A program made the translations under genes and the position numbers. This document shows positions 10,953-13,109 of a stretch of 64,000 nucleotides of DNA, in pieces. Source of the DNA: Hyphococcus luteus (GTDB lineage: Bacteria > Pseudomonadota > Alphaproteobacteria > Caulobacterales > Parvularculaceae); NCBI RefSeq assembly GCF_002943565.1, contig NZ_PJCH01000011.1, positions 1 to 64,000 on the forward strand, in the 5' to 3' direction. Within the stretch, counting starts at the first letter, position 1; the number at the start of each line of letters is the position of its first letter. The notes under the pieces were generated by a model. That model was not told where the DNA came from and searched no databases. It saw nothing but the letters and a program-made list of their open reading frames with translations.

Positions 10953-11867
10953 ATGAAATTTCTGCTGAGGCTTTTGCGTCGGCTGTTGGTCATGTTGATC
11001 GTGCCGGCGATCTTTCTCGCCGCCGGCTGGTATGGCGGATCGAAATACGGCGCGCCGCCCGCCGTCGTCGGCGCCGTCGACAATGTGTTTGCCAAAGGCC
11101 GCGCGATCCTGACGCCGATCCTCGGCGAAGCCGCGCGCAAGGGCGGCGAGGCCGCGAAGACCGCCGCGCAGCAGGGAAGCGATTATGTGGTCGGCACCGT
11201 CGAACAGATGATCAAAGACTATAAAGAGCGGTCCGAAGAAGAACCGGGCGAAGCCCCCGAAACGCAAGAAGGCGAAACGCCGGACACGGACGAACCCGCG
11301 CCCGCCGAACCACCCGCAACCGAGCCCGAACCGCAACCCTCTGCCGCCCCGGTTCAAACCGGCGACGGCATCGTCCTTTGCAAAATGCGCATCTCGAACC
11401 AGCCGCGCCAGGGCGCGCCGGGATCGAGCATCGGCGCCGCTGACGAAACGACGACCTATAAAGGCGTCACCCTCCTCCTCATGCCGGCGACCAAAGCCTG
11501 CCTTTCCTCCGGCTACGGATACAGGAACGGCAAGCTGCACAAGGGCGTCGACTATTTCTCCGACCGGGGCGGCGACGTCCTCGCCGCGGGCGACGGAACC
11601 ATCGTCGAAGCGGTCTCGCGGTCCGACTATGGCAACATGGTCGTCATCGACCATGGAAACGGCGTTTACACGCGCTACGCCCATCTCGCGCGCTTTGCGT
11701 CCGGCGTGAAAAAGGGCGCGGCCGTGACAATGGGCCAGACCCTCGGCCCCATCGGCAAGTCCGGCGCCGCGCCGGTCGTGCACCTCCATTACGAGGTGCT
11801 GACCGGCGGTTACGGGACCCGGGCGAAATCCTTCGGCCTCGAGGCCGTGGACCCGTTCGGTCTTTAA
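10953..11867 (+). CDS. M23 family metallopeptidase, membrane-anchored
   Basis: 304 residues: an N-terminal signal-anchor helix (about 4-27) and a low-complexity Glu/Pro/Ala linker (about 85-130). A C-terminal LytM/M23 domain has GYGYRNGKLHKGVDYF, DHGNGVYTRYAHL and HLHYEV. The zinc ligands HxxxD and HxH are present, so it is a likely active peptidoglycan endopeptidase acting in the periplasm. The charged linker suggests reach through the cell wall. It is monocistronic; the next gene on this strand is 850 bases away. The exact cleavage specificity cannot be read from the sequence. Confidence 0.9.
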   Translation: MKFLLRLLRRLLVMLIVPAIFLAAGWYGGSKYGAPPAVVGAVDNVFAKGRAILTPILGEAARKGGEAAKTAAQQGSDYVVGTVEQMIKDYKERSEEEPGEAPETQEGETPDTDEPAPAEPPATEPEPQPSAAPVQTGDGIVLCKMRISNQPRQGAPGSSIGAADETTTYKGVTLLLMPATKACLSSGYGYRNGKLHKGVDYFSDRGGDVLAAGDGTIVEAVSRSDYGNMVVIDHGNGVYTRYAHLARFASGVKKGAAVTMGQTLGPIGKSGAAPVVHLHYEVLTGGYGTRAKSFGLEAVDPFGL

Positions 11868-11890: not shown

Positions 11891-11906
11891 TGTGATCTGG
11901 ATCACA
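11891..11906 (+). promoter_or_regulatory. Perfect CRP/FNR-type palindrome
   Basis: TGTGATCTGGATCACA matches the CRP consensus TGTGA-N6-TCACA exactly and is a perfect 16-base inverted repeat. Its centre (11898.5) lies at -41.5 relative to a predicted start at 11940. The potential -10 element TAAGGT is at 11928-11933, exactly the class II activator geometry. There is no coding gene downstream; the only plausible target is the small RNA at 11940. Confidence 0.65.
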
Positions 11907-11939
11907 TCCGGCCCGGTCCGGCCGGGCTAAGGTCCGTTC

Positions 11940-12064
11940 ATCACGCCGGAGCGGCCCATCACCCAGGGCCGCAACGGCGCACCGGCCGGGCGCCGGCCCC
12001 TCCCCGCCCGGCCGCAAACTTGTCAAAGCCGCGTGAGGCGTAATTGCTCGCGCGGCTTTTTTTT
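11940..12064 (+). ncRNA. Candidate small regulatory RNA, about 125 nt
   Basis: The interval starts at the predicted +1 of a CRP-type class II promoter and ends in a strong terminator. It contains no reading frame of note. Three stem-loops can be drawn. SL1 is GCGGCCC (11951-11957) with GGGCCGC (11966-11972). SL2 is CGGCCGGGC (11983-11991) with GCCCGGCCG (12006-12014), presenting a 14-base loop rich in C (CCCCTCCCC). SL3 is the terminator hairpin. C-rich loops of this type are used by several alphaproteobacterial sRNAs to pair with Shine-Dalgarno sequences. I do not recognise it as 6S, SRP, RNase P or tmRNA. Structure and promoter are read from the sequence; function is inference. Confidence 0.6.
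12025..12064 (+). terminator. Rho-independent terminator of the candidate sRNA
   Basis: AAAGCCGCG (12025-12033) pairs with CGCGGCTTT (12051-12059). The stem can extend inward by four more pairs, including one T-G wobble, and is followed by an eight-T run (12057-12064). It is 160 bases beyond the M23 peptidase stop, so it could also end read-through from that gene. Confidence 0.9.
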
Positions 12065-12716
12065 CGTCTTGCCCGCCGGGCCCGCCGGCCGTGAAACAAT
12101 TTTGCGCAATCGCATCGCTATTTCTTTTTCTTTGGCTCATTTGCTGGCTTTCAGACGAATTTGGCGCCTTTTACATAAAAATGTTTCACGCGGCCCGTCC
12201 GACCTCTCCTTCTTCGACTCCCCACGCTTTGCTTGTCCCGGACCCGATCCGGGAAGCGTGGGGTCCATCCATGGCGCTGCAATCCGCTTTCTCTTAAGGC
12301 TGGACGCCACGGTTGAACCGTGGCGAGTCGCCAGGAGAAGGCTTCGCATCGTTCTCGCGAGCCTTGTGACGCGCGGATGCGCCACGCAAGGTCGGCCCGA
12401 CAGCACTATAAAGCCGCCGGAAAACCCGTGCGGACTTATCCACGGCTTTTGTTTCCGTGCTATCATGAACGGCGCCCGCCTATCCTTTGCTCGCATAAGC
12501 GCCGCGCGAAGGCGCACAAGCGCAAAAACTGCCTCCCCCTTGCGGGGAGGCCGAAATCTTCGATTTCGGGAGGGGGTAAGCCCCAATGCGCCTTTCTCTA
12601 TTTTCGGCGAGATCCTCCCCCCGCCCAAAAACGCGGTTCACCCGCGTTTTTGACCTCCCCTCAAGGGGGAGGTGAAGGGATTAGGCGCCCCGGCGCGAAC
12701 GCCCTATATTAGCCCT
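12065..12716. repeat. Non-coding stretch with palindromic intergenic repeats
   Basis: About 650 bases without a convincing gene. It holds several inverted repeats: a palindrome around 12217-12266 (CCCCACGCTT pairing with AAGCGTGGGG, enclosing CCCGGACCCGATCCGGG); GCCTCCCC/GGGGAGGC at 12531-12551; CCGAAATC/GATTTCGG at 12551-12569; and CCTCCCC/GGGGAGG at 12654-12672. Related units recur at 25481-25575, 26750-26775 and (partial, inverted) 29419-29436. Such REP/BIME-like units are common in alphaproteobacterial intergenic DNA. A single DnaA-box-like TTATCCACG at 12436-12444 is probably chance. Confidence 0.6.
12627..12651. terminator. Symmetric hairpin resembling a terminator
   Basis: AAAAACGCGG (12627-12636) pairs perfectly with CCGCGTTTTT (12642-12651) around TTCAC. 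The T and A runs on both sides allow termination in either direction. It lies within the repeat-rich stretch before the rlpA-like gene, with no obvious gene to terminate. Confidence 0.5.
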
Positions 12717-13109
12717 ATGTACCCCCGCGCCGCGATTCCCGCCGCCTTCGCCCTCTTTCTCCTGGGGGCCGGCTGCGGCCGCGAGCAGATGGCCGTGCCG
12801 ACGACGCCGAGCCTCAAGCCCCAATGCGGCGTCGCCTCCTATTACCACCCGACGCTCGAGGGGAACCTCACCGCCAATGGCGAGACCTACGACCCCGACC
12901 GTTACACCGCCGCCCATAAGAGGCTGCCCTTCGACACCGAGCTCGAAGTGCGCCGGCGCGATACGGGCGAAACCGTGGAGGTGCGCGTCAATGACCGCGG
13001 GCCGTTCATCAAGGGACGGATCATCGACCTCTCCCCGACCGCCGCCTCAGAGATCGGGCTGACGGAAGGAGACGGGGTTGCGGAGGTTTGCTTGGTGAGG
13101 ATTGGGTGA
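12717..13109 (+). CDS. rlpA: RlpA-like septal ring lipoprotein
   Basis: 130 residues: a lipoprotein signal with lipobox LGAGC (Cys about residue 18), then a double-psi beta-barrel domain. The barrel is marked by CGVASYYHP, GNLTANGETYD, the A-AHKRLPF segment and RVNDRGPF. RlpA proteins are outer-membrane lipoproteins; the Pseudomonas protein is a lytic transglycosylase acting on denuded glycans at the septum. No C-terminal SPOR domain is present, so this is a short form. The start at 12717 is chosen because an upstream extension adds 15 residues with no signal character. A TATATT box lies only 11 bases upstream, suggesting a very short leader. The AT-rich island begins right after its stop. 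Confidence 0.88.
   Translation: MYPRAAIPAAFALFLLGAGCGREQMAVPTTPSLKPQCGVASYYHPTLEGNLTANGETYDPDRYTAAHKRLPFDTELEVRRRDTGETVEVRVNDRGPFIKGRIIDLSPTAASEIGLTEGDGVAEVCLVRIG

Follow-up and report, generated by a model that had tools for sequence, protein, structure and literature searches.

Between an M23 peptidase gene and an RlpA-like gene, a 64,000-nt stretch of the Hyphococcus luteus genome (Parvularculaceae; G000:C3:1-64000, here called the window) raises the question of whether the intervening DNA carries a small RNA gene of its own, which regulator would switch it on and what such an RNA would act on. Read from the peptidase gene, the order is an operator, 21 bases, a -10 element, a 125-base stretch with three hairpins and a terminator (Table 1). 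As comparison sequence for the sRNA locus we used a relative genome (MAG Co_bin.76, G025), in which the M23 protein is 83% identical and the element and the RlpA-like gene follow in matching order. An initial annotation had proposed a small RNA under a CRP-type site, and this holds up: site, spacing, -10 element, three hairpins, loop and terminator are conserved in the relative and the rest is not, a comparison that lends good support to the prediction. The proposal as a whole, a CRP-activated, trans-acting anti-Shine-Dalgarno (anti-SD) sRNA of ar14-like build, we regard as moderately probable.

Table 1 Features of the predicted sRNA locus and its neighbours (window positions; G025, relative genome).
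Feature	Position	Strand	Basis and remarks
M23 peptidase gene (PF01551)	10953..11867	+	upstream neighbour; syntenic in G025
CRP-type operator TGTGATCTGGATCACA	11891..11906	+	sequence; 16/16 identical in G025
-10 element TAAGGT (TAGGGT in G025)	11928..11933	+	-12 to -7; 21 bases from operator in both genomes
Predicted sRNA, 125 nt, three hairpins	11940..12064	+	fold; G025 ortholog; covariance model R1; ar14 alignment
Hairpin 1, loop AUCACCCA	11944..11979	+	fold; stem similar to ar14 consensus stem 1
Hairpin 2, 9-10 GC pairs	11983..12014	+	fold; two G-C to G-U changes in G025, stem kept
Anti-SD motif CCCCUCCCC, hairpin 2 loop	11997..12005	+	GGYCCCUCCC conserved in G000 and G025
Intrinsic terminator, 13+2 pair hairpin and eight T	12025..12064	+	fold; conserved in G025
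RlpA-like double-psi beta-barrel gene (PF03330)	12717..13109	+	downstream neighbour; locus order kept in G025

The operator, previously described as a perfect 16-base palindrome, has arms of only 7 bp (TGTGATC and GATCACA) around a non-palindromic TG centre whose two bases mismatch, and it is absent from our script's list of exact palindromes in the window; both five-base CRP half-sites, TGTGA and TCACA, are nevertheless perfect. Even when one mismatch is allowed it is the sole match in the window, and it is one of six TGTGA-N6-TCACA sites in the 4.92 Mb of the genome. Its computed centre, 11898.5, lies exactly 41.5 bases before 11940, corresponding to the class II position (-41.5), and TAAGGT occupies the -10 place, both as originally noted. 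A simple promoter and terminator scanner called neither element at the sRNA locus: it looks for a -35 hexamer, which promoters with a class II activator may do without, and for terminators that fit one built-in pattern.

With +1 set at 11940 from the promoter spacing, the predicted transcript has a minimum free energy (MFE) of -75.4 kcal/mol and a z-score of -5.7 against dinucleotide shuffles; the copy in the relative reaches a z-score of -5.4 against such shuffles. In the MFE fold, hairpin 2 shows a 12-nt loop closed by 10 pairs instead of the 14-base loop first reported, with CCCCTCCCC at 11997-12005 and its last C paired. The terminator hairpin (12025-12059) continues into eight T at 12057-12064, in agreement with the earlier description of a 13-pair hairpin with an eight-T run, to which the fold adds two pairs. 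The resulting 8-U tail is compatible with Hfq binding. No ORF with a start codon runs across the RNA body in the ORF check of the window, as had been claimed for the interval between promoter and terminator, and the sRNAs of the two genomes have no reading frame in common, as indels of 4 and 1 nt disrupt any frame. The locus is non-coding. That it encodes a small protein or leader peptide instead of an RNA is scarcely credible: a start-proximal ATG does open a 24-codon frame in the relative, but the window has no start codon at this place, the two indels shift the frame between the species, and the substitutions track RNA pairing.

Indeed, the pattern of substitutions between the two genomes follows the predicted structure. 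Paired positions of the sRNA differ at 4 of 64, all pair-preserving, compared with 27 of 56 unpaired positions (Fisher P 1.5e-7, a value from one aligned sequence pair with a structure picked to fit both and therefore biased toward structure). The four changes (C-G to U-G, G-C to G-U twice, and G-U to A-U) are all one-sided, with zero double compensatory changes; hairpin 1 lacks its two innermost pairs in the relative, and these were excluded from the pair count. The three hairpins, the terminator and the CCCUCCC loop are kept there, and the similarity ends a few bases past the T-run. Upstream, the fully conserved operator is followed at the same distance by a -10 element with 5/6 identical bases, and 11 of the 21 spacer bases are identical. 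At about 52% identity of unconstrained positions, we calculate a chance probability of about 3e-5 for 16 identical operator bases. The view that this arrangement is unlikely by chance is thus backed by its conservation across two species.

The conserved promoter also bears on where the RNA would come from. The block begins 23 bases past the M23 stop codon, in the same orientation, and 3'-UTR-derived sRNAs are common; it might therefore represent the 3' end of the peptidase mRNA, i.e., a structured 3' UTR with a processed RNA and terminator. We consider this origin quite improbable, since the M23 stop codon and the RNA are separated by the conserved operator and -10 element, which keep the exact class II distance, and since M23 orthologs of other genomes (at most 66% identical) lack such a downstream block.

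Several CRP/FNR proteins encoded in the H. luteus genome come into question as the regulator. One candidate CRP (G000:C3:218540-219241, minus strand), which has an ortholog in the relative, combines PF00027 (cNMP) and PF13545 (HTH_Crp_2) domains, and the solved structures closest to it are CRP-family regulators. Its recognition helix, MRENVNR in both copies, keeps the R-E---R pattern; in E. coli CRP, residues R180, E181 and R185 contact the DNA (TGTGA). In H. luteus, a class III cyclase ORF (PF00211, adenylate/guanylate cyclase domain) lies near the CRP gene on the same strand. Because the genome codes for a cAMP-binding CRP whose helix has the R-E---R pattern and the half-sites read TGTGA/TCACA, a cAMP-type CRP is favoured over FNR as the putative regulator, which narrows the earlier assignment to CRP/FNR-family control to its CRP side, the FNR side being the less fitting one. 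Control by an FNR/FixK-type oxygen regulator, which would make the sRNA an oxygen-limitation RNA like FnrS, appears improbable. The operator does have the core TGAT-N4-ATCA in common with FNR boxes (TTGAT-N4-ATCAA), and each genome has a gene for an FNR-type protein that carries a Cys cluster and the helix E-T-L-S-R. However, the outer operator bases are G/C (GTGAT..ATCAC) and not T/A, the half-sites TGTGA/TCACA are those of CRP, both genomes code for a CRP with the R-E---R residues, and two TGTGA-N6-TCACA sites adjoin the CRP's own gene in H. luteus.

These latter two sites, out of the genome's six, lie 324 bases apart between the CRP gene and the cyclase ORF (L135, G000:C3:218000-220700, on the window's contig but beyond the window), each inside a similar small ORF in what looks like a tandem duplication. 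Autoregulation of CRP through them is possible.

When the window transcript alone was compared with Rfam, the best family was ar14 (RF02344; 32.3 bits, E 6.8e-5), with model positions 1-123 of 123 aligned to 11941-12063, and the transcript of the relative also matched over the full length (26.4 bits, E 0.0014). Neither reaches the gathering score of 58.8, and GC-rich hairpins plus a terminator can lift such scores for many families; Atu_C7 and anti-hemB, other RNAs with a CCUCCCU loop, likewise match the copy in the relative. At both ends, the ar14 model stops no more than one base from the transcript boundaries deduced from promoter spacing and T-run. Rfam searches of longer window stretches gave no ar14 match, because search filters are stricter there. 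RNAs of the ar14 family (NfeR1, 'cuckoo') form three hairpins whose stems are hypervariable and whose loops each carry the anti-SD motif CCUCCUCCC, and they silence mRNAs by covering the SD (PMC7143759, PMC10746234, PMC3927594); they are known from Rhizobiaceae, Brucellaceae and Phyllobacteriaceae (PMC7143759). The predicted sRNA shows the same layout, a transcript of about 120 nt (125 versus 123 nt) with three hairpins, the last being an intrinsic terminator, and an anti-SD-type C/U loop motif, and its stem 1 has CGGAGCGGCCCA...CCCAGGGCCGC in common with the ar14 consensus. In contrast to ar14 RNAs, the C-rich anti-SD motif occurs in the hairpin 2 loop only, as CCCCUCCCC/UCCCUCCCU instead of CCUCCUCCC; loop 1 reads AUCACCCA and the terminator loop lacks the motif. 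Moreover, NfeR1 is under LsrB and NtrC (PMC10746234), whereas the RNA described here would be under a CRP-type site and belongs to another lineage.

Is this RNA, although diverged past the Rfam threshold, still a strict ar14/cuckoo member? The full-length top match in both genomes and the matching stem 1 would agree with membership, which we nevertheless hold to be somewhat unlikely given the 32.3 bits, far short of the gathering score (58.8), the altered motif in a single loop, and the known families of origin (PMC7143759), even if ar14-like stems are hypervariable. We therefore do not file it as a member, because it stays below the gathering score and has one C-rich anti-SD loop only; it would work in the manner of the ar14 RNAs, of which it may be a diverged relative. 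The annotation of an undescribed small RNA is accordingly correct for the gene itself, but not for its architecture, which is close to a known family: the CRP-type switch and the sRNA sequence are new, and the layout resembles ar14/'cuckoo'. This also suggests that the Rfam ar14 threshold misses divergent relatives outside Rhizobiales.

Other anti-SD RNAs provide further points of comparison. Like aR8/MmgR/SisA-D, the sRNA is an alphaproteobacterial RNA with a CCUCCC-type anti-SD core 5' of the terminator; their unpaired UUUCCUCCCU core, however, is flanked by a weak hairpin and the terminator and not placed in a GC hairpin loop (PMC12559287). An aR8/MmgR/SisA (RF00519) identity was rejected (14.3 and 13.1 bits against a gathering score of 41; UUUCCUCCCU core absent), and both genomes contain a separate canonical aR8 gene. 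The AbcR1/2 RNAs of alphaproteobacteria likewise measure about 115-120 nt and have three stem-loops with unpaired CU-rich anti-SD motifs (PMC7143759); the sRNA differs from them in having no tandem copies and not adjoining lsrB, and its cmscan matches include no AbcR family. The enterobacterial CyaR is activated by CRP and pairs through its seed with the SD of outer-membrane protein mRNAs (PMC11795201). The sRNA has a CRP site and an SD-pairing loop in common with it, with a conserved TGTGA-N6-TCACA at -41.5 of its own promoter and a cAMP-type CRP with CRP-like recognition residues encoded in both genomes. This likeness is an analogy of wiring only, as lineage, sequence and structure differ and no CyaR model matches the sRNA in cmscan.

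A conserved aR8-like element was also found in both genomes (L311, G000:C12:1027950-1028019, minus strand; L315, G025:C4:10080-10150, minus strand). It scores 27-30 bits, below the threshold, and carries AGCCCCUCCC, [AG]ACUU[GC]AAG and a strong terminator; it probably encodes a second small RNA of the anti-SD kind.

According to the model that we favour, the cAMP-CRP homologue would bind 11891-11906 and activate the class II promoter, and RNA polymerase would start at about 11940 and stop at the terminator at 12064, yielding a three-hairpin RNA of about 125 nt, as suggested by sequence and conservation. Through its GGYCCCUCCC loop, hairpin 2 would then pair with GGGAGGG-type SDs of mRNAs and block translation, with Hfq as a probable partner, so that at high cAMP a set of mRNAs carrying SDs of this type would be translated less. 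Based on the loop motif and the precedents of ar14, AbcR, SisA and CyaR, we infer anti-SD repression and, by analogy, a translational repressor.

GGGAGGG is a common SD variant in both genomes: it occurs 3-10 nt before ATG 78 times in H. luteus and 45 times in the relative, compared with 10 and 6 times for the reversed control. Among the genes with this SD are two receptors with GGGAGGGGCC (L187, L225), PhaR (L217) and a cytochrome c (L176). TonB-dependent receptor genes would be the best-represented candidate target class in H. luteus, where 18 of 91 have a GGGAGGG SD versus about 1.6 expected (P 5e-15, assuming 4500 genes, with the 91 being Plug domains in the genome and overlaps hand-counted from coordinates). 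Yet only 1 of 48 receptors has this SD in G025, which has the sRNA, while 9 of 42 do in G014, which is without it; the SD bias therefore belongs to the receptor genes and not to the sRNA, and its reading as an sRNA regulon or as co-evolution was discarded. Receptor genes with GGGAGGG would be easy prey for any CCCUCCC loop, aR8 included, with nothing specific to this sRNA; SisA of Caulobacter represses TonB-dependent receptors by SD-type pairing (PMC12559287). Nine orthologous genes keep GGGAGGG in both genomes, including those for a PhaR-family PHB-accumulation regulator, a LysR regulator and a c-type cytochrome; they are our leading candidates as targets, although duplex energies at these nine conserved sites mirror the chosen seed and prove nothing. 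The search for targets near starts, suggested with the initial annotation, thus yielded 78 sites and nine conserved genes, but a receptor enrichment that is not linked to the sRNA.

Beyond the two founders, a covariance model built from both sRNAs (R1) found no comparable element: over 62 family genomes and 299 sampled order genomes only the founders score, with 120-129 bits. Weaker hits of 25-35 bits had no CRP-type site within 120 bases upstream, and we judge them to be chance matches to ordinary or unrelated terminators or coding sequence. A DNA search in 60 relatives found the element in G025 alone, as did a search of 62 family genomes for the CRP site plus -10 pattern, in which other matches precede other sequence types; a searched plasmid collection gave no sRNA match. 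Conservation of stems and palindrome in related genomes, the check that had been put forward, was thus seen in G025 but not elsewhere (2/62 family genomes). With a CRP site attached, the predicted sRNA occurs in just 2 of 62 family genomes and nowhere else among the 299 order genomes; by these searches it is a lineage-restricted gene. Such restriction is usual for many bacterial sRNAs.

Among the papers searched, none dealt with sRNAs of Parvularcula. CRP-controlled anti-SD RNAs are known in Enterobacteria (CyaR), and the alphaproteobacterial ones described answer to LsrB, NtrC or unknown regulators. In an order that has been little studied, the locus would show CyaR-type wiring that has arisen on an RNA of ar14-like build, and it supplies a concrete promoter, transcript and seed. 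A further-reaching version, in which a lineage-specific anti-SD RNA of Parvularculaceae would place a TonB-receptor and envelope regulon under cAMP-CRP, as a CyaR counterpart on an ar14-like scaffold beside an aR8 aimed at the same SD type, is speculative and rather doubtful.

A CRP-type site, TGTGATTTRCATCACA, was also observed 5' of a long structured leader in a different genus of the family (L103, G070:C16:21901-21943; L104, G071:C8:18389-18431). The leader is apparently untranslated and has a CUCUCUCCCC stretch before GGAGACTGATAATG; CRP-controlled regulation through this 5' leader is possible.

Downstream of the sRNA, two non-coding blocks of the window (12127-12197 and 12403-12490) are about 80% identical to the relative, the second containing ACTTATCCACGG and CCGTGCTATCATGAACGGCGCCCG. 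Further 3', at 12529-12577 and about 12612-12675, lie Whalefall-1-like hairpin repeats (RF01762; 28.8 and 23.8 bits versus a gathering score of 37). Their arms, GGGGAGG/GGGAGGGGG, are complementary to the CCCCUCCCC loop, and the repeats might conceivably act as a sponge for the sRNA.
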